From assembly GCF_017309955.1 (NCBI RefSeq), contig NZ_CP021247.1, positions 1,823,001 to 1,887,000 of the forward strand: a stretch of 64,000 nt of DNA, given 5' to 3'. Positions within the stretch are counted from its first letter, which is position 1. Every line of letters starts with the position of its first letter. Under the pieces are notes generated by a model that saw only the letters and a list, made by a program, of their open reading frames with translations, searched no databases and was not told the origin of the DNA. Below, one piece after another: positions 2,693-19,563 of this stretch. The DNA is from Novosphingobium sp. KA1. Its GTDB lineage: Bacteria > Pseudomonadota > Alphaproteobacteria > Sphingomonadales > Sphingomonadaceae. Position numbers and translations under genes: made by a program.

Positions 2693-3174
2693 ATTCTTGA
2701 TCCTCATTGGCTTGGGTTGGAGCGCAGCGCTGCGCTGCAACCCTGGCCGTCGCCGAGACCGGGGGGTGCAAGGAGCAAGGGCGGGCGGGACGGAGGGGGA
2801 TCACCCAGCCTGCACAGAACGGAGGAACGACGTGGAGGAAGGCTGGGGATACCGTCCCGGTCGAGCGTTAGCGATCCCTTGCGCCGCGCCAGGGGGCGGC
2901 GCCCCCAAGCAACCCGCTCGGCATGAGCGCCAGCGGGCGCCGGGCATAAAGCTGGATCAGGATGTGCAAAGCTGCAAAACCTGAAAACGGCAAATTCTGA
3001 TCTCCGCGGGCTTCGCGGCGGGTTTTGAGTGCTTGCCCATTCATGGGAAATCTCCATGACGGGCGCCGGAAAGCCTCTTTCCCTGATCGCGACCTTTGCG
3101 TTACCAATTTGCGGGCCATTGACTCCCAATTTGCCGAGGTAGATAGTCTCAATCTGCTGAGTCTTGGAGCTGGC
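2693..3174. other. intergenic gap between divergent genes
   Basis: 482 bases between the divergent ParB-domain and DUF4143 ATPase genes. No convincing gene on either strand. It should hold the promoters for both directions. GC-rich short inverted repeats lie near 2725-2745 (gcgcagcgctgcgctgc) and 3003-3022 (cgcgggcttcgcggcgg). No integrase or oriT-like feature was recognised. Confidence 0.5.
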
Positions 3175-4404
3175 ATGTACGAACGGTTTGTAGAACGGCG
3201 GGCGGAAGAGGCCCTCGCGGATACGCCCGTGGTCCTGATCGTGGGGCCGCGCCGTGCCGGCAAGACCACGCTCGTCCGCAAGATGGGCGAGACTGGTCGA
3301 ACATATATTACCCTGGATGATCAGACGGCTCTCGCAGCCGCGCAATCCGATCCGGCCGGTTTCATCCGTGGGCTGGATCAAGCCATCATCGACGAAATCC
3401 AGCGCGCCCCTGACCTACTACTGGCCATAAAGAAGACGGTCGATGAGGATTATCGGCCAGGACGATTCCTGCTGACGGGATCAGCGAACGTCCTGACCCT
3501 GCCACGGATCGCGGACAGTCTGGCCGGACGGATGGAAACTATCCAGATGTTGCCGCTGGCCAAGTCCGAAGTCGAAGGCCGGACACCCACATTTCTCGAA
3601 CGGCTCTTTGAGGGCAAGCTCCAGAGTCAGCGGAACGCCATCGTCGGTGACGATCTGGTCCAACTTGTCCTTCTAGGGGGCTTTCCCGAAGCGATCAGCC
3701 GTGAAACCGAGCGGCGGCGCCAAGACTGGCTGCGCTCCTATCTCACGTCGATTCTCACGCGCGACCTGCGCGATATTGCCGATGTGGAGAAACTGACCGA
3801 GCTGCCGAAATTCGTGCGGCTTCTGGCGGAGCACTCAGGCCAGTTGGTCAATTATTCTCAGTTCGCAGCCGGGATCGGCGTCACCCATAAGACCGGACAG
3901 CGCTATGTTGGGCTACTCGAACAAGTCTTTCTGGTCGCAACGGTGCAACCTTGGTTCACCAATGCCCTGAAGCGTATCGCCAAGACACCCAAGCTGCACT
4001 TCCTCGATTCCGGCCTGTTAGCGACTGTTCGTGGTCTGACATTCGACAGGGTGAAGGCCGATCGCGCGACATTTGGCGCGCTTCTGGAGAGCTTCGTGTT
4101 CTCGGAGGTGCTGAAGCTGATGAGTGCCTCGGATTTGCGGGTAACGCCGCATCATTTCCGGGATCGCGACATGCGTGAGGTCGACATCGTGCTGGAACGC
4201 GACGACGGCATGATCGTCGGAATCGAGGTGAAGGCCAGCGCCACTGTCAAAGCCGGTGATTTCGGAGGGTTGCGTGCCTTGGCCGAGGCCTGCGGAGATC
4301 GCTTCGCCTTTGGTGTGGTCCTCTACGACAGCGCGGACGTTGTGCCGTTCGGCGACAAGCTGGTGGCAGCGCCTCTGTCATGTTTGTGGAGCGCCGCGGC
4401 ATGA
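3175..4404 (+). CDS. AAA ATPase with DUF4143 domain
   Basis: A 409-aa P-loop ATPase of the AAA_14/DUF4143 family. The Walker A is GPRRAGKTTL (near residue 23), Walker B is IIDEIQR, and LLTGSAN forms sensor 1. The middle carries the family's GGFPEA box. The C-terminus (EVDIVLE...GIEVKASA) resembles the D-ExK core of a restriction-endonuclease-like fold. The ATG at 3175 was chosen because GGAG lies 5 bases before it and the match to the family begins there. Family members are widespread in mobile and accessory regions and their targets are mostly unknown. It runs in the same direction as the defence block 121 bases downstream, so it may be part of it or a neighbour. Confidence 0.85.
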   Translation: MYERFVERRAEEALADTPVVLIVGPRRAGKTTLVRKMGETGRTYITLDDQTALAAAQSDPAGFIRGLDQAIIDEIQRAPDLLLAIKKTVDEDYRPGRFLLTGSANVLTLPRIADSLAGRMETIQMLPLAKSEVEGRTPTFLERLFEGKLQSQRNAIVGDDLVQLVLLGGFPEAISRETERRRQDWLRSYLTSILTRDLRDIADVEKLTELPKFVRLLAEHSGQLVNYSQFAAGIGVTHKTGQRYVGLLEQVFLVATVQPWFTNALKRIAKTPKLHFLDSGLLATVRGLTFDRVKADRATFGALLESFVFSEVLKLMSASDLRVTPHHFRDRDMREVDIVLERDDGMIVGIEVKASATVKAGDFGGLRALAEACGDRFAFGVVLYDSADVVPFGDKLVAAPLSCLWSAAA

Positions 4405-4525: not shown

Positions 4526-7500
4526 ATGAAAGCTTTTCAGTTCAATCATAGGCTTATCGATTCATACGCTCGCTTCTCGCGGTCATTTAGCACTGTCCGA
4601 TCCGATGATCTGAAAGCTGAAATTGATAGGAAATATGACAACGGCCATTTCTGGCCCGATACTTTGCTGTCTATTAATCCTCGCTTTCTTAAGGGAGCGA
4701 CGGCGGACGAACTAGTCGCTTCCGGCGACCTCGATGAAGCGACGGGCAAAATATTCCGATTCGGGTCAACACCGCTACGATTTCACCGCCACCAAGCCCA
4801 AGCGATCGCCAAAGCTCGCGCGGGGAAAAGCTACGTAGTCACGACAGGAACAGGGTCGGGTAAATCGCTCTGCTTTTTCGTGCCGGTTGTCGACTCGATT
4901 GTCCGTGCGCGGAAAGCCGGGAAGCCTCGCAAGACCAGTGCGATCATCGTTTATCCGATGAACGCACTTGCCAATAGTCAGATGAACGAGATCGAGAAGT
5001 TCATCTCGCAATCCGGGCTTCCGAAGGAATCCAAACCGGTTGTGCGGCGCTATACAGGGCAGGAAAGCCAGGAAGAGCGGCAGCAGATCGCCGACAATCC
5101 GCCGGATATTCTGCTCACCAACTTTATGATGGCCGAACTTCTCCTGACGCGACAGGACAGTCTCGACACGAAGGTCATTGAGAACGCAAGCGGCCTAGAC
5201 TTCATCGTCCTCGACGAACTCCACACCTATCGGGGCCGTCAGGGCGCCGACGTGGCCGTTCTCGTCCGACGCCTCCGCAATCGCTGCACACCGGATAAGG
5301 CGCCAATCTGCATCGGCACATCGGCTACCATGGCGAGCGAAGGGTCGGACGCAAATAGAGCCCAGGCCGTAGCAGATGTTGCGTCCCGCCTTTTCGGAGT
5401 CACCATCGGACCGGACTCTGTAATCGATGAATCTCTGGAACGCGCAACGGATGACCGGCTGAAGCTGGATGACGTGCGTTCGAAACTGACTTCCGTGCTT
5501 ACATCACCAATGCCCGATGAGTTGACCGACGAGGTGTTGAAGCAGCACCCCTTGGCGGTTTGGACGGAATTGGCGATCGGTTTGGATGATGGTCTGGAAC
5601 TGAAGCGCAAGAAGCCAATTCCATTCGGGGAAGCGGTGGAACTTCTATCACAAGATAGCGGCACGGAGGCGGAAACCTGCCGGCATTATTTTGAGGCATT
5701 TCTGACCCGTATTAGCCTGCCGGAAACTGATCGAGGCGGTCAGGGAGCCAGCGCGTTTCTGGCATTCAAGCTTCATCAGTTCATATCGGGCGCAGGCGAA
5801 ATCTTCGTCACATTGACCGAGAAGCCCAGAAACGTGCTCTTTGAGGGGCAACTCGAAGACCCTGACGCGCCGGGACATCGTCTTTATCCTACGCGCTTCT
5901 GCCGGGGGTGTGGGCATGAGGTTCACGTTGTCACCAGAACGGATGATGCCTCAGGCGTTCTATTCGTTCCCAGAAACATCGACGACGCCCCCCTCGACGA
6001 TCAGGAAACTGAGACGGCCGGCTATCTTATCCCTGACGGCGACGGCGATCCCGACTACATCTTCACGGGCGAGATCGAAACCTATCCCGAAGATTGGCGC
6101 GAAGAGCGTCACGGGATTGAGCGCCTGCGGGCGAACAGAAAGGGACGAGTGCCGCAACAGTTCTCGGTCGCCCCCGATGGCCGCCCCGCGTTAACGGGCA
6201 AAGCCTTCTGGTTCATCCCCGGCAAATTCGGCTTTTGTCCCTGCTGCCTCGATCAGCCTCACCCGAGCATGAGAGAACGCAGCAAGCTTGCGGGCCTGTC
6301 GGGCGAAGGACGCAGCTCTGCCACGACTCTGCTTGTTTCGACGGCTCTGGAATGGATGAACAGCCACAATAGCGGCGTTCCCAAAGAAAAGCGAAAGCTC
6401 CTTGGCTTCACCGACAACCGGCAGGATGCCGCGCTTCAGGCAGGCCATTTCAACGACTTCCTGTTCGTCAGCCTACTACGTGGCGCGATCCTACGCGCGG
6501 TCTTGGATGCTGGTAATGATGGGATAACGGAAGACGAATTTGGTCTGAAAGTGGTCAAGGCGCTCGGCTTTACCGCGAGTAACAGGGAGGCCCGCATCCA
6601 TTGGATGTTGGATGCAGAAGCTGGAGCCGTGGTTCGCGAAGACGCGCAGCGATCCCTCGCAAAGGTCCTGGCTCACAGACTCTGGACAGATTTGCGGCGC
6701 GGATGGCGCTACACGAACCCGAGTCTCTCCGTCCTCAAGCTAATCGATGTTTCGTTCATCGGCCTTGATGAGGTCGCGGAGGATTCAGAATGCCTCGGGG
6801 CAATCCTGCCAGCTTTGACCACTCAGAGCGTTTCGCAGCGGAAAGAAATGCTGAAAACGCTTCTGGGCGCCATGCTCGACGGCTTGGCAGTGGGAACCGA
6901 GGCGCTCGATCTAACAGTCCTCGACACCGTCGCACAGAAATCCAGAAATCTCCTGCGCACACCCTGGTCCATCGACGCGAAGGAAAACCCAAGGAGCCGT
7001 ACGACCCTGTTTCTTCAGGCTCCGGGCAAGGATCGGGTGGGGCTCCGGGAAGAGCAAACGATCGTTCGTGCCGGGCATAATTCCCGTATCGGACGCCTGA
7101 TTAATCGCAGGGACTTTTTCGGAGAAAAGCTTGGCAGAGACGACTATCTGACGGTCTTGACTGGCCTGATGGAGCTTTTGGCCCGCGAGGGGCTGGTGTC
7201 GCGGGTTGACATAGAGGCGGACTTGCAAGGATGGCGCCTGTCACCATCGACCGTTCGGATTGTCCCTGGTGAGGCCGTCCGGTCTGGCACGGCCAAAGGA
7301 AATCGCTATTTCCACGATCTGTATCATCAGATTGCCGCTGATCTGAAAGCTGGTGGAAGCGGCTTTTGGGGGCTTGAGGGTCGTGAACATACGGCGCAGG
7401 TTTCTCAAAGACAGCGCGAATGGCGCGAATGGCGTTTCAGATACGAAAAGGAAGACCGGGAAAACCTCGCCCAGTACGCCGCCGAACTCAAGGCGGTGGG

Positions 7501-9691
7501 GGAGTCAGACCAGTTCCTTCCAGCTCTCTTCTGCTCTCCGACCATGGAGCTTGGCGTCGATATTTCGGCGCTCAATGCCGTCTATTTGCGCAATGTGCCG
7601 CCGACGCCGGCGAACTATGCGCAGCGCGCTGGTCGCGCCGGCCGTTCCGGACAGGCCGCCGTCATCGTGACCTATTGCGCTGCTCAATCGCCGCATGACC
7701 AGTATTTCTTCGAACGGCGCAATGAGATGGTGGCCGGTGTCGTTCGCCCCCCTGCGCTCGACATCACAAACGAAGAGCTTGTGCGTTCACACCTGCACGC
7801 CATTTGGCTCGCTGAGGCGAAACTCGCCCTCTCACCGGATATCCCAGAAATCCTTGATCTGACAGGGACCGGCTATCCGTTGAAGCAGGAAGTCCACGAC
7901 ATCATCGATCCGCCCGCACTCGCTGCGGCGGCCCATGCGCCGATGAAGCGAGTACTTGATCAAATTCTTGCATCCGTGGATGGCCGAAAGCCAGCTTGGA
8001 TGAATGATCCCGACGATTTCGTGTCTGCTGTCGCTCAACGTGCGCCCGAGGACTTTGATCGTGCCTTCGACCGTTGGCGCGAACTCTACAATTCTGCTCG
8101 AACGCAATTGATGGAAGCCAATGCGCGCTCCGAGATCACGGGGCTTTCCGGCGCAGATCGTCGTCGTATCAAAGCGGCGCAGATGCAGGCGAGCGACCAG
8201 ATCACCATTCTGGAACAAGGCAAGGCCTCGAACGGATCGGACTTCTATTCCTACCGCTATCTTGCGACCGAGGGCTTCTTACCGGGCTACAATTTCCCGC
8301 GCCTACCTCTCTATGCCTTTATCCCTGGCGAGGGCAAAGCGGGTTCATTCCTCCAGCGCGCTCGTTTCCTGGCCATTTCGGAATTTGGGCCACGCAGCCT
8401 GATCTATCATGAGGGGCGTGCCTATCGAGTCATGAAGGCGAAGCTGCCGCCGGAAGTCCGGACGGGGGATGGGGCTGAACTGGCCACGAAAGACATCTTT
8501 ATATGTTCGAACTGCGGCGCCTGCCATGACGGAGAGGTTGAACGGTGCCACGCCTGCAATGCGCCGATGGCGGGCGAAGTGCCGGTACAGAGAACGCTCC
8601 GCATCGACAATGTGGAAGCGGCCCCGGCCGAGCGGATCACGGCGAACGACGAAGAGCGTGTCCGGCAGGGCTTCGACATACAGACCGTCTTTTCCTGGCC
8701 GAAACGGGACGGTCGCACGCAAGTTATCGAGGCCGACTTCCGCTGTGAGGACGTCTCGATCCTCAATCTCCAATATGCGAACAGCGCCGAGATCAGCCGT
8801 ATCAACAAGGGTCTGAAACGACGCGCCAATCAAACCGTCTTCGGCTTTCACATCGATCCGCGTAGCGGCTATTGGGCAAAGTCGGACGACGAAGATCCCG
8901 ATGTCGATGTGCCGCCGGATGTGGTGAGGCCGGTTCGGATCGTCCCGATCGTGCGTGACCGTAAGAACGCGCTGCTGTTCCGTTTCAACAATCCTGCCGA
9001 CTACGCGCCCGAGACCATTGCGACGGTCCAACATGCACTCATGAGAGGCGTCGAGATTGTCTTCCAGTTGGAGGAAGGCGAGATACTCGGTGAGCCGCTC
9101 CCCGCTCGCGACAATCGCCGCGCTGTCCTGGCCTATGAAGCCACGGAAGGCGGGGCAGGCGTACTGAGCCGTCTGATCGAGGATTCCCAGGCGCTCGGGA
9201 AAGTCGCTCGGGCAGCACTGATCTTGATGCATTTTGATAGGGTCGATGAGGCCATCGCAGCAGGCAATGCCAAGCTGCTCGTCAATCACGATGAGGAATC
9301 ATGTGTCCGGGGCTGCTACCGATGTCTGCTGTCCTATTTCAATCAACCCGATCACGAGTTGATCAACCGCACCCATGAGGAAGCCAAGCAGATGCTGGTC
9401 GATCTCGCGCGGGGCCAGGTTGTACTGGCGGCGGATCAGCCAGCAGAAAGTGGGGAATGGGTGGACACCTTCAAAGCGGCGGGACTTCCTGCCCCGGATA
9501 GCTCCACCATGAAATTTTCCGATCAGGAAATGAGTTTTGCATGGCGCAGCCATTTCGTCGCCGCTTGCATTGTTCCCTTGACGGAAGCAACACGCCAAAC
9601 TGCGGAGGCCAAGGGCTGGACGCTGTTTGAGTTACCGCAAGTCGTCACTGTGGGCGTGCCCGACGCAATGCGTTCGATGTTCGGGGAATAG
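4526..9691 (+). CDS. large DEAD/DEAH helicase with DUF1998-like C-terminus (DruE / DrmA-DrmB-like)
   Basis: A 1,721-aa superfamily 2 helicase. Walker A is TGTGSGKS (107-114), motif II is DELH (230-233), motif III is TSATMA (265-270). Motif V/VI follow after a large insert, near residues 1006-1042 (TMELGVDIS and QRAGRAGRSGQ). Two CxxC pairs (CRGCG near 458, CPCC near 571) may form a split zinc ribbon, and a second ribbon (CSNCGAC...CHAC) lies near 1326. The C-terminal 150 residues carry the DUF1998/MrfB-type signature: EGGAGVLSRL, then CVRGCYRCLLSY near 1593. The size and helicase-plus-DUF1998 layout match Druantia DruE; in DISARM these parts are split into DrmA and DrmB. The neighbouring DrmD- and DrmMI-like genes favour a DISARM-related function. 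Predicted role: translocation on invading DNA. The ATG at 4526 begins the conserved part; an open stretch upstream is probably untranslated. Confidence 0.88.
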   Translation: MKAFQFNHRLIDSYARFSRSFSTVRSDDLKAEIDRKYDNGHFWPDTLLSINPRFLKGATADELVASGDLDEATGKIFRFGSTPLRFHRHQAQAIAKARAGKSYVVTTGTGSGKSLCFFVPVVDSIVRARKAGKPRKTSAIIVYPMNALANSQMNEIEKFISQSGLPKESKPVVRRYTGQESQEERQQIADNPPDILLTNFMMAELLLTRQDSLDTKVIENASGLDFIVLDELHTYRGRQGADVAVLVRRLRNRCTPDKAPICIGTSATMASEGSDANRAQAVADVASRLFGVTIGPDSVIDESLERATDDRLKLDDVRSKLTSVLTSPMPDELTDEVLKQHPLAVWTELAIGLDDGLELKRKKPIPFGEAVELLSQDSGTEAETCRHYFEAFLTRISLPETDRGGQGASAFLAFKLHQFISGAGEIFVTLTEKPRNVLFEGQLEDPDAPGHRLYPTRFCRGCGHEVHVVTRTDDASGVLFVPRNIDDAPLDDQETETAGYLIPDGDGDPDYIFTGEIETYPEDWREERHGIERLRANRKGRVPQQFSVAPDGRPALTGKAFWFIPGKFGFCPCCLDQPHPSMRERSKLAGLSGEGRSSATTLLVSTALEWMNSHNSGVPKEKRKLLGFTDNRQDAALQAGHFNDFLFVSLLRGAILRAVLDAGNDGITEDEFGLKVVKALGFTASNREARIHWMLDAEAGAVVREDAQRSLAKVLAHRLWTDLRRGWRYTNPSLSVLKLIDVSFIGLDEVAEDSECLGAILPALTTQSVSQRKEMLKTLLGAMLDGLAVGTEALDLTVLDTVAQKSRNLLRTPWSIDAKENPRSRTTLFLQAPGKDRVGLREEQTIVRAGHNSRIGRLINRRDFFGEKLGRDDYLTVLTGLMELLAREGLVSRVDIEADLQGWRLSPSTVRIVPGEAVRSGTAKGNRYFHDLYHQIAADLKAGGSGFWGLEGREHTAQVSQRQREWREWRFRYEKEDRENLAQYAAELKAVGESDQFLPALFCSPTMELGVDISALNAVYLRNVPPTPANYAQRAGRAGRSGQAAVIVTYCAAQSPHDQYFFERRNEMVAGVVRPPALDITNEELVRSHLHAIWLAEAKLALSPDIPEILDLTGTGYPLKQEVHDIIDPPALAAAAHAPMKRVLDQILASVDGRKPAWMNDPDDFVSAVAQRAPEDFDRAFDRWRELYNSARTQLMEANARSEITGLSGADRRRIKAAQMQASDQITILEQGKASNGSDFYSYRYLATEGFLPGYNFPRLPLYAFIPGEGKAGSFLQRARFLAISEFGPRSLIYHEGRAYRVMKAKLPPEVRTGDGAELATKDIFICSNCGACHDGEVERCHACNAPMAGEVPVQRTLRIDNVEAAPAERITANDEERVRQGFDIQTVFSWPKRDGRTQVIEADFRCEDVSILNLQYANSAEISRINKGLKRRANQTVFGFHIDPRSGYWAKSDDEDPDVDVPPDVVRPVRIVPIVRDRKNALLFRFNNPADYAPETIATVQHALMRGVEIVFQLEEGEILGEPLPARDNRRAVLAYEATEGGAGVLSRLIEDSQALGKVARAALILMHFDRVDEAIAAGNAKLLVNHDEESCVRGCYRCLLSYFNQPDHELINRTHEEAKQMLVDLARGQVVLAADQPAESGEWVDTFKAAGLPAPDSSTMKFSDQEMSFAWRSHFVAACIVPLTEATRQTAEAKGWTLFELPQVVTVGVPDAMRSMFGE

Positions 9692-9695
9692 AGTG

Positions 9696-12461
9696 ATGAC
9701 AGTGAATTTTGCCCCGGGAGATTTGGTTCGAGCACGCGGCCGTGAGTGGGTTACACTTCCGTCACCGCAGAACGGCGTCCTCACGCTCCGCCCCCTTTCC
9801 GGTAGCAGCAGCGATACCGTTGTTCTCGACCCGACGCTCGAACTTCTACCGGTCGAGCCGGCCCGTTTCGATCTCCCCGCAGATGCGGCCACGACCGTTC
9901 AGGCCAAAGCGGCATTACTGGCGGATGCGATGCGCCTGACGCTTCGCCGTGGCGCAGGCCCTTTCAGGTCGGCAGCCCAGCTCGCCTTTGAGCCGCGAAC
10001 CTATCAGCTTGTCCCCCTGCTGATGGCACTTCGCATGGTGGCGCCGCGCTTGCTGATCGCCGATGATGTGGGCATCGGCAAGACGATCGAAGCGGGCCTG
10101 ATTCTGCGCGAGCTGATGGACCGAGGCGAGGTGGATGCGTTCTCGGTGCTTTGCCCACCGCACCTCGTCGAACAATGGATCGGAGAGCTGAAGGCCCGTT
10201 TCGGCATTGACGCCGTTGCGGTCACGTCCAGCACCGCAAGCCGTCTTGAACGTGGTCTACCGCTCGCCCAGACTCTATTTGAGGCTTATCCTTTCACGGT
10301 CGTCAGCCTCGACTACATCAAGGCGGAGAAACGCCGCGAAGGCTTCGCGCGCGCCTGCCCGGATTTCGTCATCGTCGATGAGGCTCACGCCTGCGTCGGA
10401 ACGCACAAGGGCCGGCAGCAGCGCTTCGATCTCTTGCAGGGTCTGGCGCGGAATCCGGATCGCAGGATGATCCTTCTGACCGCGACGCCGCATTCCGGGG
10501 ACGAGGAGGCGTTCGCTCGTCTCCTTTCCCTGATCGATCCGTCATTTGCCTCAATGGACTTCGAGGACACGCGATATCGCGAGCGTCTGGCGCGCCATTT
10601 CGTGCAAAGGCGCAGGATCGATCTCGTTACCGGCGATTGGGATGAGGATCGCGCATTCCCGAAACATGAAACCACCGAGTTTGCCTATCACCTGTCCGGT
10701 GCTCATCGCGACTTTCAAGAGGCCGTCCTTGATTACTGCTTCGGTGTCGTCTCCAAGGCGGGATCGGGGCAGCGTGAGCAGCGCCTCGCCTTCTGGGGCA
10801 CACTGGCCCTGATGCGCTGCGTCGGCTCTTCTCCAGCCGCTGCCTTGAGCGCGTTGCGGAACCGCATGTCGAGCGAAAGCGATCGCCTCGAACCTCAAAT
10901 CTATGACGAGGACGGAGATGATGAGGACGCGGTCGATCTCGAACCAGGCACGGCATTCGAGGTCGATCCTGCGCTTCTCGCGCTGGTAAGGCACGCCGAG
11001 GAATTGGTAGGAAAAGCCGATCCGAAGCTGGCGGCTTTGATCGAGACGCTGACGCCTCTCATCAAGAAGGGCGCAAATCCCGTCGTCTTCTGCCGTTATC
11101 TGGCGACGGCCGAGCATGTACGCGATGGTCTGCGTAAAGCCTTTCCGAAGCTCACCATCGAGTCCGTAACGGGTATTCTCACACCGGACGAGCGTCGTGA
11201 TCGTGTCGCCGACATGGCGGCGACGGGCGAGGAAAAGCCGGTCCAGCGCATCCTTGTCGCCACCGATTGCCTCTCCGAAGGGATCAACCTCCAACAGCTC
11301 TTCGACACTGTCGTCCACTACGACCTGTCGTGGAATCCGACCCGGCACCAGCAGCGCGAAGGGCGAGTCGATCGGTTCGGGCAGCCGGTGGACCTTGTCC
11401 GGTCGATCATGATGTTTTCGCCGGACAGTGCCATCGATGGCGCCGTGCTTGAGGTCATCCTTCGGAAGGCCGAGGAAATCCGCAAGGCAACTGGCGTGAC
11501 CGTGCCACTCCCAGAGGAACGCGGGCCGGTGACGGACGCATTGATGGCGGCGATGATGCTGCGCCGCCGAGGGAGTCCCCAGCTCACGCTCGATCTTCGC
11601 TTCGAGGATAGCGTGAAAGCGGTGGAAGCGCGCTGGCGGGACGCTTCCGAGAACGAGCGGAAATCGCGGGCGCGTTTCGCGCAGAACGTCATGAAGCCGC
11701 AAGAAGTCGCACCCGAATGGGAAAAGGTTCGCGCGTTGCTTGGCTCACCAGCAAATGCGCGCCTATTTGTCGAGCGCGCCATGTCGCGCTTCGGCGCGCA
11801 GTTGGAAACCCGCAAAGCCGTGCTTCTGGCCCATGTCGACGCTCTCGATGCCGACCTGCGTGGGCGTTTGGCCGAACATGATCTGAAAGGAACGGTGCGC
11901 CTGGCGACGATGGAGCCTGCACCCTCGGGCACGGCGCTGCTCACCCGAACGCACCCGCTGACGGCGACACTCGCCGAGGCGCTGGTCGAAGCCTCACTTG
12001 ACCGGGAATCTTTGTCCGGGCTGGGCATCGGTCGTGTCGGCGCGTGGCCGACCGCCACCGTCCAGCAAGTCACCCGCCTCGCGCTCCTGCGCATCCGCTT
12101 CAAGCTGACTGTCCATGCCCGCAAGGAACGGCTGTTGCTGGCAGAGGAAGCGGCGCTCGTCGCGGTGCAGGGCGCGCGGATCGTGGCTATCGGCGAAGAA
12201 GCGCGCGAACTGCTGAACGCGCCCGCGACGGCCGATCTTGCGCCCATCGCGCGGGACAGATTCATCGCCAAGGCCAAGGAGGAACTGCCTGACCTGCTCG
12301 AAGGGCCGATCGCCGAGTTCGTCCAATCGCGAGGGCAGGAGCTGATGGAGGATCACGCCCGCCTTCGCATTGCGTCCGGGTCCGCTTCCCGGGTCACTGT
12401 GGAGGCCGTATTGCCGCCGGATGTCATCGGCCTGTTCACGCTGATGCCGGGAGAGGCTTGA
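9696..12461 (+). CDS. SNF2/RapA-type helicase, DrmD-like
   Basis: A 921-aa Swi2/Snf2 family ATPase. Walker A is DVGIGKT (124-130, following LLIAD), the DEAH box is near 228-231, TATPHSG is near 262-268, and motif VI is QQREGRVDRFGQ near 552-563. The first 90 residues form a small beta-rich domain typical of DISARM DrmD and RapA-like proteins, and the C-terminal 300 residues are helical. The ATG at 9696 lies 4 bases after the upstream helicase stop, so translation is probably coupled. DrmD is the class 1 DISARM helicase; that assignment rests on motif layout and on the methyltransferase that follows immediately. It may instead belong to a sister family. Base composition is somewhat lower in G+C than the chromosomal genes to the right. 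Confidence 0.85.
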   Translation: MTVNFAPGDLVRARGREWVTLPSPQNGVLTLRPLSGSSSDTVVLDPTLELLPVEPARFDLPADAATTVQAKAALLADAMRLTLRRGAGPFRSAAQLAFEPRTYQLVPLLMALRMVAPRLLIADDVGIGKTIEAGLILRELMDRGEVDAFSVLCPPHLVEQWIGELKARFGIDAVAVTSSTASRLERGLPLAQTLFEAYPFTVVSLDYIKAEKRREGFARACPDFVIVDEAHACVGTHKGRQQRFDLLQGLARNPDRRMILLTATPHSGDEEAFARLLSLIDPSFASMDFEDTRYRERLARHFVQRRRIDLVTGDWDEDRAFPKHETTEFAYHLSGAHRDFQEAVLDYCFGVVSKAGSGQREQRLAFWGTLALMRCVGSSPAAALSALRNRMSSESDRLEPQIYDEDGDDEDAVDLEPGTAFEVDPALLALVRHAEELVGKADPKLAALIETLTPLIKKGANPVVFCRYLATAEHVRDGLRKAFPKLTIESVTGILTPDERRDRVADMAATGEEKPVQRILVATDCLSEGINLQQLFDTVVHYDLSWNPTRHQQREGRVDRFGQPVDLVRSIMMFSPDSAIDGAVLEVILRKAEEIRKATGVTVPLPEERGPVTDALMAAMMLRRRGSPQLTLDLRFEDSVKAVEARWRDASENERKSRARFAQNVMKPQEVAPEWEKVRALLGSPANARLFVERAMSRFGAQLETRKAVLLAHVDALDADLRGRLAEHDLKGTVRLATMEPAPSGTALLTRTHPLTATLAEALVEASLDRESLSGLGIGRVGAWPTATVQQVTRLALLRIRFKLTVHARKERLLLAEEAALVAVQGARIVAIGEEARELLNAPATADLAPIARDRFIAKAKEELPDLLEGPIAEFVQSRGQELMEDHARLRIASGSASRVTVEAVLPPDVIGLFTLMPGEA

Positions 12462-12463
12462 GC

Positions 12464-15400
12464 ATGGCGCGCAAACCCGTCACCGACATGTCGGCATGGC
12501 CGGCCCTCGCGCTGGAAGGCAACCTCATCGCTCCGGCCATGGTCGCCAGCATCGACCGCCGGCAAGCCACCGATCAGGCGGAAGAGGATTATCGCATCCG
12601 CAAGGGGCTGACGATCCGCGAGGAGATTTCAACCTCCTTCCGCGTCGGCCAATCCCATTTTGACGCCTTCACGAAGCTGCCGAATCCCTCAGTCGAGGCG
12701 ACCCGTCGCTTTGTCCGTGCTTTCCTAACGGAGACTTTCGGTTTCGACGATCTCGTCCCGGTCGACGGCACGCTCTCCTTCCTCGCCGGCAGCCGTGTCC
12801 CGATTGTCGTCGTGCCGCCATCTGAAGAGAAGCTCGATCGGCGTAGCCCGACCCTTTCGACCGACCGTTCACGGTCTCCGGCCTTCGCGCTTCAGGATTA
12901 TCTCAACGATCATGACGATGCGCTTTGGGGGCTGGTCACAAACGGGACCATTCTACGTCTCATGCGGGACAATGCTTCGCTGACGCGGCCAGCCTACGTC
13001 GAAGCCGATCTCGCGCAGATATTCACCAACGAGGACGCCGCCTCCTTCGCGGTTCTCTGGTCATTGATCCACCGCACGCGGTTCGGTGCTGCGGGCGCCC
13101 CGGCCACGGATTGCGCGCTGGAACGTTGGCGTGATGCCGGCTCCCGCGAAGGCGAAGCCGCGCGCGATCGGCTGGCGGCGCAAGTGGAAACCGCGCTCCG
13201 GGTGCTCGGCTCGGGTTTCCTCGAAGCCAATCCCGATCTCGCTGCGCGCTTGAAGTCAGGCGAGATCGACCTGACCGAGTGGTTTAACGAACTGCTGCGC
13301 CTCGTTTATCGCCTGATCTTCCTAATGGTGGCCGAGGACCGGAACCTGCTCCATCCCGAAACGGCAGCACAGGACGCCCGTAAGCTCTACCGCGAAGGCT
13401 ACAGCCTCGCCGCGCTGCGGGCTTCCTGTGTTCGCGCGGCTACCTGGGACAAGCATCACGATCGCTATGAGGGCATCAAGATCGTCTTCCGCGCGCTGGC
13501 GCATGGACAGGATGCGCTCGGCCTACCGGCACTCGGCGGACTTTTCAGCGATGATAAGCTGCCCCACCTCGAAACGGCCCGCCTGCGCAATCGCGCTTTC
13601 ATGGAGGCGCTCTACCGCCTCTCCTGGCTTTCAGACAAAGCCGGTATGACGCCGGTGAACTGGCGCGTGATGGAGACCGAGGAGCTAGGCTCGGTCTATG
13701 AATCCCTCCTCGAACTCCAGCCGCAGCTTGGCGATGACGGCAAGAGCCTGCACTTCGCCTCAGAGGCGGCGGAGCAGAAGGGTAATCAGCGCAAGACCAG
13801 CAGTTCATATTATACGCCGGACAGCTTGGTGCAGGCGCTTCTCGACATCGCGCTCGACCCGGTGCTCGACGAGACCGAAGCCGAAGCAAGCGATCCCGCC
13901 CAAGCACTACTGAACCTTGCGATCATCGATCCGGCCTGCGGATCGGGCCACTTTCTTTTGGCTGCTGCCCGCCGCATCGCAACTCGACTGGCCCGTATAC
14001 GGGCTGAAGGCACACCCGCTCTGGCCGATTTCCGTCATGCTCTGCGCGATGTGGCTCGCTGCTGCATCTACGGTGTGGACCGTAATCCAATGGCGGTCGA
14101 GTTGACCAAGGTCGCCCTCTGGATCGAGACCGTCGATCCCGGCCTTCCGCTCGGCTTCTTCGACGCGCAAATCCGTTGCGGCGATGCGCTGCTCGGCGTT
14201 TTCGACCTCAAAGTGCTGGAGGACGGTATTCCCGATGCCGCCTACAAACCCCTTGCCGGCGATAACAAAGACGTGGCGCGATATTACGCGCAGAAAAACA
14301 GACGTGAAGTAGCTGAAAAGGGCAAGATTGCGCAGGGCTTTGGCTTCAATCGGTCACGAGACTTCATGCGTGACTTCGAGGCGCTGCGTGCAATGCCCGA
14401 GAATACCGTCGAGCAGATCGAGGCCAAGGCGGAGCGCCTGCGCACGTTGACTGCTGAGGGTGCTGCTCGATGGACGTTAACGCGGGCGTGTGATTTCTAT
14501 GTCGCTGCCTTCCTGAGTTCCAAGCGTGAGGGCGGGCAATATGCCGGACCCGATGGTTTACCTCGTAGGGGCGCGGAAACCGTGCCGACTTCAGGCACGA
14601 TCTGGGAGCTTTTGCGAGGTGTAAGTCCATTCGCGCCCTTGGTCGGCGCCGCGACCGACGTGGCTGGGGCAGCACGAGCTTTGCACTGGCCTCTCGAATT
14701 TCCGGACGTGATGGCGCGCGGTGGATTCGACGTCGTATTGGGCAATCCCCCATGGGATACCATGAGCCCCGACTATAAGGAGTTTTTCTCCACCTACGAT
14801 CCGAATGTTCGCCATCTATCTCCGGCAGAACAGAAGGTGGCATATGAAGAACTTTTGCTCGATCCCAAGATAGCGGAACGATGGGGGCGGCACTGCGAAG
14901 CGCTTTATGCTGCCGTTCATTTCATCAAATCAAGCGGGCGCTACAAGCTATTTGCCGAGGGTAATCTCGGAAAGGGCGACTTCAACGTCTATCGCATGTT
15001 TGTCGAAACCGCGCTTGCTGCTACCCGCAGCGGGCGCGTGGCGGCGCAGTTCGTGCCGGAAGGCTTGTATAACGGCGCCAACGCGACAGCTATACGCAAA
15101 GAGCTTTTCACCAAGTTCCGCCTCGAAAGACTGGCGGGCTTTGAGAATACCAAGGGGATCTGGTTCCCCGCTGTCGATACACGGATGAAATTCTGCCTCT
15201 ATGTCGCCCGGAAAGGCGGAGAGACCGCGCTCGTACCGGCCGCATTCCGTGTCAATTCGACCGAGAAACTCCAAAGTCTCATGGCAGGGCGCATTCTCTC
15301 AATCCCCGTGGCAATCGTCGAAGAGTTTTCTCCCGACGCGGTGGCAGTGATGGAGTTTGCCGCGCAATCTGAAATCGATGTTTGCGCGAAGATGTACGGG

Positions 15401-16816
15401 CTTTATCCAAAATTTGGCGCTGAAATTAAGGATGTCCCATATCGACACTACATGCGCGAAGTCGATATGGGAACGGATCGCGGGCTGTTCTCCGAAGGTG
15501 ACGACGGCCTACCTGTCTTTGAAGGGCGCATGATCGACGCCTACGATTACCGAGCCAAGGGCTATGTGTCGGGGCGGGGGCGTGCGGCCGTATGGGATGA
15601 TCTACCCTTCGGCTCGCCAAATAAACGCATTCAGCCGCAGTGGCGTATCCTGCCCGAGAGCATTCCCGACAAGCTCTCGGGGCGCATTGATCGCTACCGG
15701 ATCGGATTCGGAGATATTGCAAGCCCGACGAACCAGCGTGGTTTGATTGCTGCGCTTTTGCCAGGACCGAGCGTGAGCGGCCATAGTGTGCCGACGATTG
15801 AGTTTAACAATGCCGGACTCGATGCTTTGCTTCTTTGGCTCGGGGTCGCGAATTCATTTGCGATGGACTTTCTCGTCCGACCGAAAGTGTCTCTGCATAT
15901 GACCTACACGATTATGGATAGCCTGCCTTTCCCAAGGACTGTTGCGGAAACTCCGGCTGCAATCGAAATCGTGCGCCGCGTTTGTGCGCTTTGTGCTGTC
16001 GGCCCTGAAATGCAAGGGCTTCGTCAGACAGCTGTAGAAGCTGGAATTTTGCCATCTCTTGACGATGTCGTTGAAGATCCAGATCGGCGTGCAGTACTAT
16101 CGGCGGAGATCGACGTTTTGGTGGCGCGAGAAGTCTATGGCCTGGGCAAAAACGAGATGCTCTATATCCTCGATCCCGTGAACATCCTCGGAGAGGATTG
16201 CGGCATCGAGACTTTCAAGGCGCTTCGCAATCGCGAATACCGTGAGTTCAACGAGTTCCGCACTCAGCGATTGATAGAAGAGGCGTGGGATCGTCTGACA
16301 ATTGCCGAGGCGAGGCCAGCTCCGGCCGACCTGCCAGATGGCGCATGGGCGCGGGCTACACAGCAGCCACATGACGCCGGCGCCGCCCTAACCGCGATCC
16401 TGAAGGCCATCGACGGGCCAACGCCAAGGGAAGCCATTCGTTTCGCTGCGGCGCTGGTCCTGGAGCCACACCTTCTGACGGCGCTGCTCCCGGCGGCGCA
16501 AGCACAACAGTGGCGGCGGCTGAACGGGCAAGAGGCTGAACCACGAACCGGCAATGTTTTCGGGTTCGCGGCGCGCACCAATCAGGGCTGGGGCACTTCC
16601 GTGTCCAACCATCGTGGCAACGGCCGCCTGATCGAAGACCTGTCGACCGGAACATGGGCGCCAGGGCCGGGCCTCGACGTGTTCGACACCACCGGCTGGC
16701 CGGACGGCCGAGCGCACTTCGTACTGGAGGCGTTACGATCACTCGATCTCGCTTCGACCGTTTCCTCTATGCCGGATGAGGTCCGGGACTGGATCGCCCA
16801 TGCCGCAGCAGCATGA
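12464..16816 (+). CDS. Eco57I/PglX-like adenine-specific DNA methyltransferase (DrmMI-like)
   Basis: A 1,450-aa gamma-type N6-adenine methyltransferase. The AdoMet site DPACGSGHF lies near residue 490 and the catalytic NPPW near 760, followed by a putative target-recognition region to about 1230. The roughly 450-residue N-terminal part precedes the helical SSYYTPDSLVQ entry to the catalytic core. This layout is shared by BREX PglX, type IIG enzymes such as Eco57I and DISARM DrmMI. No nuclease motif was found in it, so it probably marks self DNA while other subunits restrict. The ATG at 12464 has GAGAGG 7 bases upstream and lies 2 bases after the DrmD-like stop. An in-frame TTG at 12458 is less likely. 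Confidence 0.88.
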   Translation: MARKPVTDMSAWPALALEGNLIAPAMVASIDRRQATDQAEEDYRIRKGLTIREEISTSFRVGQSHFDAFTKLPNPSVEATRRFVRAFLTETFGFDDLVPVDGTLSFLAGSRVPIVVVPPSEEKLDRRSPTLSTDRSRSPAFALQDYLNDHDDALWGLVTNGTILRLMRDNASLTRPAYVEADLAQIFTNEDAASFAVLWSLIHRTRFGAAGAPATDCALERWRDAGSREGEAARDRLAAQVETALRVLGSGFLEANPDLAARLKSGEIDLTEWFNELLRLVYRLIFLMVAEDRNLLHPETAAQDARKLYREGYSLAALRASCVRAATWDKHHDRYEGIKIVFRALAHGQDALGLPALGGLFSDDKLPHLETARLRNRAFMEALYRLSWLSDKAGMTPVNWRVMETEELGSVYESLLELQPQLGDDGKSLHFASEAAEQKGNQRKTSSSYYTPDSLVQALLDIALDPVLDETEAEASDPAQALLNLAIIDPACGSGHFLLAAARRIATRLARIRAEGTPALADFRHALRDVARCCIYGVDRNPMAVELTKVALWIETVDPGLPLGFFDAQIRCGDALLGVFDLKVLEDGIPDAAYKPLAGDNKDVARYYAQKNRREVAEKGKIAQGFGFNRSRDFMRDFEALRAMPENTVEQIEAKAERLRTLTAEGAARWTLTRACDFYVAAFLSSKREGGQYAGPDGLPRRGAETVPTSGTIWELLRGVSPFAPLVGAATDVAGAARALHWPLEFPDVMARGGFDVVLGNPPWDTMSPDYKEFFSTYDPNVRHLSPAEQKVAYEELLLDPKIAERWGRHCEALYAAVHFIKSSGRYKLFAEGNLGKGDFNVYRMFVETALAATRSGRVAAQFVPEGLYNGANATAIRKELFTKFRLERLAGFENTKGIWFPAVDTRMKFCLYVARKGGETALVPAAFRVNSTEKLQSLMAGRILSIPVAIVEEFSPDAVAVMEFAAQSEIDVCAKMYGLYPKFGAEIKDVPYRHYMREVDMGTDRGLFSEGDDGLPVFEGRMIDAYDYRAKGYVSGRGRAAVWDDLPFGSPNKRIQPQWRILPESIPDKLSGRIDRYRIGFGDIASPTNQRGLIAALLPGPSVSGHSVPTIEFNNAGLDALLLWLGVANSFAMDFLVRPKVSLHMTYTIMDSLPFPRTVAETPAAIEIVRRVCALCAVGPEMQGLRQTAVEAGILPSLDDVVEDPDRRAVLSAEIDVLVAREVYGLGKNEMLYILDPVNILGEDCGIETFKALRNREYREFNEFRTQRLIEEAWDRLTIAEARPAPADLPDGAWARATQQPHDAGAALTAILKAIDGPTPREAIRFAAALVLEPHLLTALLPAAQAQQWRRLNGQEAEPRTGNVFGFAARTNQGWGTSVSNHRGNGRLIEDLSTGTWAPGPGLDVFDTTGWPDGRAHFVLEALRSLDLASTVSSMPDEVRDWIAHAAAA

Positions 16817-18782
16817 GATGTTCGCTCCTCCGAAACTCGACCTGACCGCTCCTGCAGGTCTGAAGGAGCCACGGCTTTGGGTGCGCCGCTTGGCTCTCTG
16901 GGAAGCGCCCGGCGGTCCGAAAATTCGCGAGGACATCTTACTTCGGCCGGGTCTCAACATCGTCTGGTCGCCCGATGGCTTCGATGATGACAACGCTAGC
17001 GGCGCGCGCGCCATCGGTCACGGAGCCGGCAAATCGCTATTCTGCCGTCTGCTGCGCTACTGCCTCGGCGAACAGCGCTTCGCAGACGAGACCCAGCGGG
17101 AGCGGATTGCGATCGCCTTCCCTGACGGCATCGTCGGCGCCGAGGTGATGCTCGATGGTGTATGTTGGGCAGTTGTCCGGCCATTGGGCAACCGGCGTCG
17201 CCATGTTGCCATCGCTGATGGCAACCTCGATGAGATCGCCGCAGGCGACGGCGCGACGACAAGCATCGACCCGCTGATCGAAGCCATCGAGCAGGCCATC
17301 GTCACGTCCTCTATCGCGAGTTTGGCCCGGCTTCAGCCCGGCCAGAAAGCATGGCCGATCGCGCTCGCCTGGCTGACGCGCGATCAGGAATGCCGTTTCG
17401 ACGATGTTCTCGATTGGCGCTCTCCCGCCTCCGGTTCCGATGCACCGATACCGGCGAGCGGTCGCGAAACCGGGCCGCGGCGGGAGGCGCTTCGCGCGTT
17501 CCTCATGGCGATCACGGAAGAGGAGCAGCAGGCTCGGCGCAACGAGGAAACGCTGCGTGGAAATGTCACCAATGCGGAGCGTGAAATATCCCACATTACT
17601 TGGGATCTCGGTCGCCGCTATATCCGACTGATCGACCAACTCGGCCTCGGTGAACAGACACTGCCGGAAATGCCTTTGCTCCTGGAAGTGTTTCGGAAGA
17701 CGACCGATGACCGGCTTGCCGCCGCAGCTCAGCTTCCCAGCGGCAACACCGCTGAGTTGGCGGCAGCACGGAAGGCATTGCAGGAGGCTAATGGCGAGTT
17801 GAGCCGCGCAAACGAAGAACGTGTTCGCCTGGATGCGCAGTTGCCCGCCGAGAAGCAGGTCCTCTCTCTGCTTTCCAGCGAAATCCCCGGTCTTTCAGCG
17901 GCAGCGGAAAACGCGGCAAGTCAGGTATGTCCGATCTGTGAAGTGCCGATCGATAAAGTCTTGTCGGAGGGGTGTGGCCTGTCTCACAGGCTGCACGACG
18001 AAGCGGAATGCCGAGCCCGGCTTGAAACGAAGCGCCAGGAAATCGGCGAGCAGAGGAAGAAAATCGACGATCTGGAAACGCGGTCAAAAGCACTCCAACC
18101 CGTCATCGCCTTGGCCAAGCAAAAAGCTGAGCAGGCGGAGAAGCGCGTCCAAGCCATTGAGGGCGTCCGTGATGCGCGCACGTCCGCATGGCAGGCCGCG
18201 ACCCGTCTCACGGAGGGCGTCGAGCGATTTAGCGAACTATCGGCCGAACGGGATGATCTGCGAAAGCGGTTGCGGGGTTTTGAGGACAATCTGGTCAAAG
18301 AGCGCGAAAGGCTCGCCGCCTTCCGCGATAAGCAGGGGCTGACTTTTGGCAGGATCACGCAGAAATTCTCGGCCATCATTCGTCGGCTGGTCAACGACAA
18401 CGCGAAGGGAACGGTTACTCTGAACGGGAACGGACTCGAAATTGTCGTCGATGTTGATGGAGATCGCCGCACAGCCGCCATAGAGTCCCTGAAAGTTTTG
18501 GCGTTCGATCTTGCCTGTCTCTGCCTGAGCATTGAGGGCGCAACACGCGTCCCGGCGTTTCTCGTTCATGATAGTCCCCGCGAGGCTGATCTTGGCCTTA
18601 GCATCTACGACGAGTTGTTCCACCTGATGTGTGAACTGGAGACACTGACCGAGGTCACGGCCTTCCAGTATATCGTGACGACCACAACACGTCCTCCCGA
18701 TGATCTCCGCTGCGATCCTTGGCTGAGGCTGACCTTGAAAGGTGCGCCAGGTTCGGAGCGCCTCATGGCGCGCGATTTGTAG
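16800..18782 (+). CDS. Rad50/SMC-like ATPase with zinc hook
   Basis: A 660-aa ABC/SMC-type ATPase. Walker A is GHGAGKS (near 74-80), preceded by a beta-strand start (LLRPGLNIVWSP). Long coiled coils (about 240-370 and 390-520) flank a CPIC zinc-hook motif near 377. The C-terminal lobe has the Walker B variant FLVHDSPRE near 587, a form seen in DUF2326-like SMC ATPases of anti-phage and ABC three-component systems. The hook suggests dimerisation as in Rad50. The start is uncertain: ATGs at 16776, 16800 and 16818 are in frame; 16800 overlaps the methyltransferase by 17 bases, consistent with coupling. It lies directly before an HNH nuclease, so it may gate that nuclease as Rad50 gates Mre11; this is inference. 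Confidence 0.8.
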   Translation: MPQQHEMFAPPKLDLTAPAGLKEPRLWVRRLALWEAPGGPKIREDILLRPGLNIVWSPDGFDDDNASGARAIGHGAGKSLFCRLLRYCLGEQRFADETQRERIAIAFPDGIVGAEVMLDGVCWAVVRPLGNRRRHVAIADGNLDEIAAGDGATTSIDPLIEAIEQAIVTSSIASLARLQPGQKAWPIALAWLTRDQECRFDDVLDWRSPASGSDAPIPASGRETGPRREALRAFLMAITEEEQQARRNEETLRGNVTNAEREISHITWDLGRRYIRLIDQLGLGEQTLPEMPLLLEVFRKTTDDRLAAAAQLPSGNTAELAAARKALQEANGELSRANEERVRLDAQLPAEKQVLSLLSSEIPGLSAAAENAASQVCPICEVPIDKVLSEGCGLSHRLHDEAECRARLETKRQEIGEQRKKIDDLETRSKALQPVIALAKQKAEQAEKRVQAIEGVRDARTSAWQAATRLTEGVERFSELSAERDDLRKRLRGFEDNLVKERERLAAFRDKQGLTFGRITQKFSAIIRRLVNDNAKGTVTLNGNGLEIVVDVDGDRRTAAIESLKVLAFDLACLCLSIEGATRVPAFLVHDSPREADLGLSIYDELFHLMCELETLTEVTAFQYIVTTTTRPPDDLRCDPWLRLTLKGAPGSERLMARDL

Positions 18783-18789
18783 GCGGCCA

Positions 18790-19563
18790 ATGCCTGAAGC
18801 CCCCCAATCCTTCATGGTCCGGGAAGAATGTGAGAAAGCCGCCTCACAAAACGGCTTTCGCCGTGTTCTGGGCGAAGAAGCAGGATGGCGTGCATTCGCG
18901 TCCACGACAGCGCATGGCACCATCTATCTGGCTGCTGAAACCAGTCATGGGCCGTGGTTTCTCGCCACCGACCATGCAGGTGTCGTCGCGGAGCTGGATT
19001 GGCCAGCCACCGTAATGCCTGGCCCCGGCACGCGACAGTACTCCTTCAATGCGCTGGGCGAACTCTACGCAGCGCTGAATCGCGTCTATGCCTTGTCGAT
19101 CAGCCTTCCCGACGCACCCCTCCGGGAGTTCGAGCGGCGCGTAGCAGGTCTGTCTCGAACCACCGAGGTCGAGCGCTTGGTGGTGCAGCGGATCGGGCAA
19201 GACATCTTTCGGGACCGCCTTATGGACTACTGGCAGGGGCGTTGCCCTCTGACTGAGATTTCCGATCCGGCCCTGCTACGCGCGTCGCACATCATCCCTT
19301 GGGCGGACTGCGAAAGCGACGCCGAACGGCTCGACGTGCATAATGGCTTGCTGCTGTCAGCGTTGTGGGATGCCGCCTTCGATCGCGCGCTCGTGACCTT
19401 CGACGGCGAAGGCAAGCCTGAATTCTCCCCATCACTCACCGAGCACGCGCGCGCCGAATTACGCTGGAGCGCCCCCGTTCCGCTGACGGACAAGCATCGC
19501 GGACGGCTTGCCCGCCATCGCGAGAGAGCACGATCTCTATGGCAGCGTGGCCCGCAAGCTTGA
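18790..19563 (+). CDS. HNH endonuclease
   Basis: A 257-aa protein. The last third is an HNH_2-type nuclease: GRCPLTE (near 149), ASHIIPW with the first catalytic His, DVHNGLLLS with the HN pair, and AAFDRAL. The first 130 residues form an uncharacterised alpha/beta domain (includes YLAAETSHGPWFL), which is common in this family as a sensor or DNA-binding part. The ATG lies 7 bases after the Rad50-like stop. It is the only clear nuclease in the block and so the likely effector. The C-terminal tail after residue 235 overlaps a decayed reading frame and may have been altered by recombination. Confidence 0.85.
   Translation: MPEAPQSFMVREECEKAASQNGFRRVLGEEAGWRAFASTTAHGTIYLAAETSHGPWFLATDHAGVVAELDWPATVMPGPGTRQYSFNALGELYAALNRVYALSISLPDAPLREFERRVAGLSRTTEVERLVVQRIGQDIFRDRLMDYWQGRCPLTEISDPALLRASHIIPWADCESDAERLDVHNGLLLSALWDAAFDRALVTFDGEGKPEFSPSLTEHARAELRWSAPVPLTDKHRGRLARHRERARSLWQRGPQA

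Follow-up and report, generated by a model that had tools for sequence, protein, structure and literature searches.

An operon of Novosphingobium sp. KA1 with two helicases, a methyltransferase, a Lamassu-like ATPase and an HNH nuclease: a putative branch of ARMADA-Type-I-like antiviral systems

The stretch of DNA analyzed here, referred to as the window, covers 64,000 nucleotides of Novosphingobium sp. KA1 (NZ_CP021247.1, positions 1,823,001-1,887,000), and our subject is a block of five consecutive genes, all on the + strand, at window positions 4526-19563. Gene 1 (4526..9691) encodes a YprA-like DEAD helicase of 1721 amino acids with an MZB/DUF1998 part (Pfam DEAD, Helicase_C and MZB; motifs GTGSGKS and DELH). 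Its C-terminal domain (9380..9688) is a degenerate Vsr-like one, assigned by profile comparison, from which the PDF.Y / IDG..H motif is absent. Gene 2 (9696..12461) encodes an SNF2/RapA helicase of the BrxHII/DrmD-like kind (Pfam SNF2-rel_dom and Helicase_C; motifs GIGKT and DEAH), and gene 3 (12458 or 12464..16816) a PglX/Eco57I-like N6-adenine methyltransferase of 1452 amino acids (Pfam Eco57I and N6_Mtase), with PACGSG at residue 492 and NPPW at residue 763. Two parts of this methyltransferase are important below: an exchangeable middle, approximately residues 600-1250 (14255..16207), which has low identity to a related locus (L002) and is probably the target-recognition part, and a C-terminal extension, approximately residues 1285-1452 (16310..16813), which we call the tail and for which a structure model predicts a winged-helix fold. 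Gene 4 (16776..18782, likely start 16818) encodes an SMC/LmuB-like ATPase of 668 amino acids with the motifs GHGAGKS and FLVHD and a CPIC zinc hook; its Pfam match to DUF2326 was under the cut-off of that family. Gene 5 (18742..19563, likely start 18790) encodes an HNH_2 nuclease of 273 amino acids (Pfam HNH_2; PADLOC HNH model, 88 bits; motifs SHI and HNG), whose N-terminal domain is of unsettled fold.

The five genes had been named in an initial annotation of this DNA, and Pfam and the motifs confirmed all of them. The tight packing claimed there was also borne out. The longest frame of gene 1 begins at 4256, and the start at 4526 gives the 1721 residues that match the length of close relatives (99-81% identical and 1718-1728 residues long among the matches listed). 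The longest frame of gene 2 begins at 9627, and many of its relatives start at about residue 20-24 of this frame, that is, at about 9696. When frames and relatives were compared, the likely true starts of genes 2 to 5 were 9696, 12464, 16818 and 18790, which leave gaps of a few bases. Similarly, no PLD domain was found by Pfam in any of the five proteins, in agreement with the reported absence of DrmC. The guanine-plus-cytosine content of the block is 0.56-0.64, against 0.64-0.70 downstream. By DNA search gene 1 is present as a single copy in the host genome, and the HNH gene is the only PF13391 match there.

In order to clarify the class of this operon, we compared it with the known systems. 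Of the classes described so far, ARMADA Type I comes closest. In the available parts of the preprint describing it (Bell et al. 2025, bioRxiv, PMC12458937), this type consists of a YprA homolog, a BrxHII-like helicase and a PglX-like methyltransferase, which as a rule follow one another in that order; a Vsr nuclease predicted to be active is fused to the C-terminus of the helicase, and the type is abundant in Pseudomonadota. Genes 1-3 match it in kind and order. The operon differs in that its Vsr is degenerate, its HNH nuclease is separate, and the ATPase and the methyltransferase tail are added; the active helicase C-terminal Vsr, which is stated for the type and is not the definition of its clade, is absent in the window. 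In the available text of the preprint, 'HNH' occurs once, within a reference title, and 'SMC' does not occur. Another description of this gene set was not found among the papers listed by searches of open-licence PubMed Central, which is no proof of absence. In our tree, which is not anchored by the reference sequences of the preprint (its Table S1 and WP_108720193.1), the HNH loci nest among active-Vsr loci with the ARMADA I gene set.

The initial annotation had called the block a restriction-like relative of DISARM and Druantia. This holds as a general idea, but ARMADA Type I, the closest class, was not named. It had also regarded gene 1 as DrmA and DrmB appearing in one protein of DruE size; there is indeed a single protein, but helicase and DUF1998 part in one protein are the usual state outside DISARM (PMC12458937, available parts). 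The PADLOC scores were 275 bits (DruE1) and 56 bits (DrmA) for gene 1, 649 bits over the whole length (PDLC02853, 'DpdE') and 257 bits (DrmD) for gene 2, and 249 bits (DrmMI) for gene 3. No curated DISARM or Dpd cut-off was reached. That is, gene 2 scored 285.8 against the cut-off of 610 for NCBIfam DrmD (NF038317), under half of it, and the same test gave 121.3 against 950 for NF038318, while the Dpd families gave 196.1 against 500 (DpdE, NF041062) and 76 against 800 (DpdJ, NF041067). The operon resembles class 1 DISARM in having an SNF2 helicase, a PglX-like methyltransferase and a YprA-type helicase, but it has neither a separate DrmB nor DrmC; we rejected membership in DISARM on this gene set and the missed cut-offs. 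With Druantia it shares a gene 1 best matched by DruE models, but it carries a methyltransferase, an SNF2 helicase and an HNH nuclease instead of the partner genes, and no partner model (DruH, DruA-D) was among the best 25 PADLOC matches of each protein for genes 2-5. Membership in Druantia was rejected, since only the DruE-like gene 1 is present. Dpd was rejected on its curated DpdE and DpdJ cut-offs, the 7-deazaguanine genes not having been searched for. Automatic annotation may label such operons as partial Dpd, given the match of gene 2 to PDLC02853. Septu consists of a PtuA ATPase and a PtuB HNH protein. Set beside it by description only, the operon resembles it in the ATPase adjoining an HNH nuclease and differs from it in that these two genes occur independently of each other; no Ptu model was among the PADLOC matches listed for the window genes.

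The same gene order, which had been proposed as something to look for in other genomes, does recur. When named genomes were scanned with gene 2, 216 relatives were obtained, the best 80 of which were retained; these were 73-94% identical and, going by their record titles, mostly from Alphaproteobacteria. The order YprA-SNF2-methyltransferase-(slot)-HNH was common to most of these best 80 of 216 that lay on long-enough contigs. The sample was widened by 12 annotated plasmid loci, by further loci and by loci from taxon-wide searches (class, phylum and order, with differing queries and E-value limits), in which loci were found in 7 of 385 genomes of one class, 12 of 397 of a phylum, 8 of 48 of a second class, 3 of 24 of an order and 9 of 370 of a third class. 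Among the 133 loci tabulated, 42 have the ATPase and the HNH gene together with a dead-Vsr helicase. Recurrence of the five genes is far beyond chance. Counted among the 42 are the window itself, a re-fetched contig and two near-copies, and in some of them (e.g., L016, L043, L053 and L063) a gene is in pieces. A Rhizobium (L002) and an environmental Sphingobium (L008) are among the bearers of the five-gene operon. In the whole sample, the contigs of L053, L060 and L092 were fetched a second time as L117, L118 and L172, and L014 and L038 have near-copies in L015 and L093; because these are included, the count of 42 and the counts of 71, 48 and 53 given below are slightly inflated. In phage records no match to gene 1 was found up to E 1e-60.

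We then considered the helicase C-terminus. In relatives at about 36-43% identity, the Vsr/DUF559-type motif (PDF.Y, then IDG..H) is kept behind the zinc cluster of the helicase; among the loci in which it is kept are some from Deinococcus, Nocardioides, Rhodococcus, cyanobacteria, Thermus and a Roseomonas plasmid. In contrast, the helicase tail of the window and its clade is shorter and the motif is absent. The HNH gene was sought by profile across each whole locus. Where at least 3.5 kb of sequence was available behind the methyltransferase, it was present in 0 of 21 active-Vsr loci and in 71 of 74 degenerate-Vsr ones, 'active' being a pattern that was written after the helicase tails had been read. 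Left uncounted were 17 degenerate loci without HNH and with less than 3.5 kb, and in 9 of the 133 loci the helicase C-terminus was unreadable. The three degenerate loci without HNH are L020, in which the methyltransferase is shortened to 1028 residues, L145 (Kozakia), in which an IS21-type element lies directly behind the methyltransferase, and L137 (Streptomyces), in which the Vsr motif is half-kept. A further one, L136 (Chlorohelix), has 3.1 kb of room, and an EVE-domain gene follows. A low-threshold search of these four loci did not find an HNH gene. A Hydrogenimonas plasmid was used as a prediction: its helicase tail is degenerate and its record is cut within the methyltransferase, and the far side of the circular record carries, in the same orientation, a gene annotated as HNH, which matched the HNH profile at 9e-44. 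Alpha, gamma and Acidithiobacillus loci alike retain the HNH gene.

Profile comparisons point to the dead helicase tails belonging with the Vsr tails, strongly for some groups and weakly for others. Dead gamma-group tails gave 98.7% against Vsr tails (E 1.6e-15) and the Hydrogenimonas tail 97.2%; alpha against gamma tails gave 94.5%. Alpha tails gave 88.7% against active Vsr with intermediates added and 72.5% alone, and the six intermediate tails alone gave 56.0%, compared with 0.16% for an unrelated control. In a tree of 32 rows the dead-Vsr rows formed one clade (14 rows, support 98), apart from Hydrogenimonas, and a single dead-Vsr clade was not rejected by the approximately unbiased (AU) test (p 0.459). 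Several independent exchanges of Vsr for HNH are not supported. For this tree 11 active-Vsr rows (near relatives and long branches) were removed by hand, as were L136 and L137. Of its 15 'HNH' rows, two (L062 and L163) come from contigs that stop short of the HNH site and were assigned to this group by their dead Vsr, and for a third, L129, the HNH gene lies on L140; the 'Vsr' rows L116, L165 and L167 likewise come from contigs that stop too soon to show an HNH gene. Only 3 independent tree pairs were available for HNH against Vsr, too few for testing. The association is thus strong in numbers, yet it rests on perhaps one or two events.

The HNH part has its closest fold in VcaM4I and TagI, and it matches VcaM4I also by sequence (E 7.6e-13). 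The title of the TagI structure entry says modification dependent, and VcaM4I is likewise a modification-dependent enzyme. These likenesses fit another explanation, namely that the HNH protein would serve as an auxiliary, modification-dependent weapon against phages with modified DNA that the methylation check fails to catch, the dead Vsr being simply tolerated. We consider this unlikely. We suppose instead that the HNH protein from the end of the operon makes the cut, because it occurs with dead-Vsr helicases and keeps the HNH motif.

The link between the ATPase and the methyltransferase tail was first noticed in the first 80 loci. As measured behind a conserved block near the end of the methyltransferase, all 48 ATPase-bearing loci have 146-211 residues and all 53 ATPase-free loci have 0-29. 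The block model was seeded from the methyltransferase ends of 31 ATPase-free loci, so the short tail of those 31 is partly by construction; ATPase-free loci needed 2.5 kb past the methyltransferase, and L020 and L079 were unmeasurable. By an independent measure from a fixed motif, the tail was 164-211 residues in 36 loci with the ATPase and 3-47 in 47 loci without it. The loci fetched later, which add 7 with the ATPase and 27 without it, gave zero exceptions. On the helicase tree (FastTree) the ATPase changes at least 17 times, and the tail, judged by its length, changes with it in 13 of 13 independent tree pairs (sign test, p 0.00024). This pair test used a tree of 95 rows, from which L015 and L172 were dropped and in which identical rows were counted once; an earlier pair test, with the tail judged by sequence profile, gave 12 pairs in the same direction, 0 opposite and 3 undecided. 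The link also holds outside the clade of the window, in loci with an active Vsr (L111, L113, L114, L169 and L174). These results show that tail and ATPase occur as a unit in every locus measured.

The two parts also diverge together. Pairwise identities of tail and ATPase are correlated at 0.78, and at 0.71 with gene 2 removed (41 loci and 820 pairs, seven loci being excluded as near-copies or for split genes). Between L008 and L004, the helicase is 94-100% and gene 2 88-100% identical per 100 residues, whereas no 100-residue stretch of the tail or the ATPase exceeds 50% identity; the HNH protein is 81-88% identical over its first 200 residues and 36% in its last part. Between L017 and L019, the cassette of tail and ATPase is present in one and absent in the other, and their methyltransferases are 77-98% identical over residues 1-900 and 91% at the end, but 24-51% in the target-recognition part. 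The methyltransferases of the window and L002 are similarly 82-98% identical over residues 1-500, 23-38% over residues 600-1200 and 89-90% in the tail (last 150 residues). It looks as if the target-recognition part has been exchanged within a kept methyltransferase frame. A convincing match of the tail to any Pfam or PADLOC family was not found. A search for stand-alone relatives of 0.55-1.75 times its length gave 75 matches of 97-292 residues, many on short contigs, and the few informatively named ones are methylase or restriction proteins marked partial; a clear separate gene was not found among them.

What the ATPase may be is suggested by its likeness to Lamassu. An SMC-like ATPase of the LmuB type is present in the operon, with modest scores: PADLOC LmuB gave 61 bits, an LmuB model matched 32 of 32 aligned members of the ATPase, and the ATPase profile matched 9hqu_A, a chain of a Lamassu structure, at E 1.1e-8. 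The single sequence found no match among solved structures up to E 0.1. The DruC model of Druantia weakly matched 4 of the 32 relatives (best 1.9e-5). For the predicted fold of the tail (model m25a49dd3279d), small Lamassu chains ranked first, weakly. Comparison of the tail with LmuC profiles gave no signal, a test that was powerless because the LmuC candidate groups hardly find each other (among four such groups the best pair gave 7.6% and the other five less than 1%). A separate LmuC gene was not seen in the operon, and from the structure model the tail is a candidate for LmuC. No LmuA model was among the PADLOC matches listed for genes 1-5. Elsewhere in the host genome there is a separate, high-scoring LmuB gene (L185, G000:C2:572427-574271; PDLC03863, E 5.2e-140), so that the host has a Lamassu-type gene in addition to the LmuB-like one in the operon. 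Directly upstream of L185 a small open reading frame of LmuC size was not found.

This likeness raises the question of whether two systems are nested here, an ARMADA-like core and an abortive unit of the Lamassu kind, with the ATPase as LmuB and the HNH protein as an effector of the LmuA type. The ATPase is LmuB-like and adjacent to the HNH gene in the window, and a Lamassu review, in its available part, names a domain of the HNH superfamily as one of the LmuA effectors. Nevertheless, an ATPase match is absent in 35 of the 77 HNH loci, and in five loci the ATPase accompanies an active Vsr, with no HNH gene in the available sequence (L111 and L174 having less than 2 kb behind the ATPase). The ATPase tracks the methyltransferase tail, not the HNH gene, and the nested arrangement seems improbable to us. 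Since ATPase and HNH occur independently, the earlier proposal that the ATPase controls the nuclease was set aside as well.

The slot between methyltransferase and HNH contains the SMC-like ATPase, other genes, or nothing. L146, on the megaplasmid of Methylorubrum extorquens AM1, has the HNH gene but lacks the ATPase. The other genes observed there are an IrrE-like M78 peptidase (L021, L025, L045, L046, L064 and L079), a CBS-domain protein with an RNEIMH-like motif (L019, L021, L059 and L081), an HD protein (L077 and L080), a gene with a weak UDG-like match (L044), GmrSD beside the ATPase (L038 and L093), an AAA_21 ATPase with a small partner (L140) and a UvrD-like helicase (L162). The slot seems to be a place where accessory defence genes dock. 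Unrelated genes in this slot, together with the DrmD, DrmMI and DruE models that match parts of the proteins, might lead one to regard the operon as a simple relative of DISARM or Druantia in which the additional ATPase and HNH genes ride along in a defence island. We find this very hard to accept, considering that the curated DrmD cut-off was missed, that the HNH gene is conserved in alpha, gamma and Acidithiobacillus loci, and that ATPase and tail co-occur with zero exceptions in the loci measured.

Taken comprehensively, we think that the operon probably represents a branch of ARMADA-Type-I-like putative antiviral systems, in which helicase restriction would be licensed by methylation, the HNH protein would be the cutter, and a Lamassu-like sensor, where present, would dock via the methyltransferase. 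Methyltransferases with NPPW carry out N6-adenine methylation, and helicases of both families translocate. ARMADA Type II of E. coli gives protection without cell killing (Bell et al., PMC12458937). The methyltransferase may mark host DNA by adenine methylation, at sites that its exchangeable middle determines. Going by their families, the SNF2/RapA and YprA helicases may load on unmarked or remodelled foreign DNA and translocate along it, and with the catalytic motif of the helicase-borne Vsr lost, cleavage would fall to the HNH protein. The optional LmuB-like ATPase may be a sensor of DNA structure that docks on the winged-helix tail and reports through the methyltransferase, adding a second, topology-type licence to the methylation check. 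More tentatively, we speculate that the whole is a composite machine: a Lamassu sensor could have been taken up by fusion of LmuC to the methyltransferase, so that marking and topology are read by one complex, the fused Vsr could have been exchanged for a separate HNH, and tail and ATPase could be a plug-in cassette gained, lost and swapped many times. This fuller account seems possible to us but doubtful.

How ARMADA, DISARM and BREX restrict unmarked DNA is called unknown in the available part of a 2026 review (PMC12904381). The loci described here form a natural series of operons that differ mainly in their nuclease (Vsr or HNH) and in the presence of the sensor cassette, and so allow direct comparisons that bear on the identity of the cutting nuclease, the contribution of the ATPase and the part played by the methyltransferase. 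If the tail is indeed a dock for the SMC protein, restriction-modification and SMC-based immunity would be joined in one machine.

Several minor observations concern the setting of the operon. In the window, a gene for a DUF4143/AAA_14 ATPase lies just upstream (3025-4404), and at 650-2740, on the strand opposite to it, there is a protein that is ParB-like by eye and has no Pfam match; the operon may border an integrated, plasmid-like element. Several operon copies contain or adjoin insertion elements, namely those of L131 and L133 (Deinococcus), L130 (Acidithiobacillus) and L145 (Kozakia), and in D. radiodurans MP1 the methyltransferase is in pieces. In Aureimonas sp. SK2, versions of the operon are on two contigs of one genome record set (L003 and L064), one with a methyltransferase tail cut by the contig end and the other with the M78-type slot gene. 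In L132 (Nocardioides plasmid pNOCA01), a DISARM drmA/drmB pair lies a few genes upstream of the active-Vsr version, behind which come an AAA ATPase and an McrC gene.

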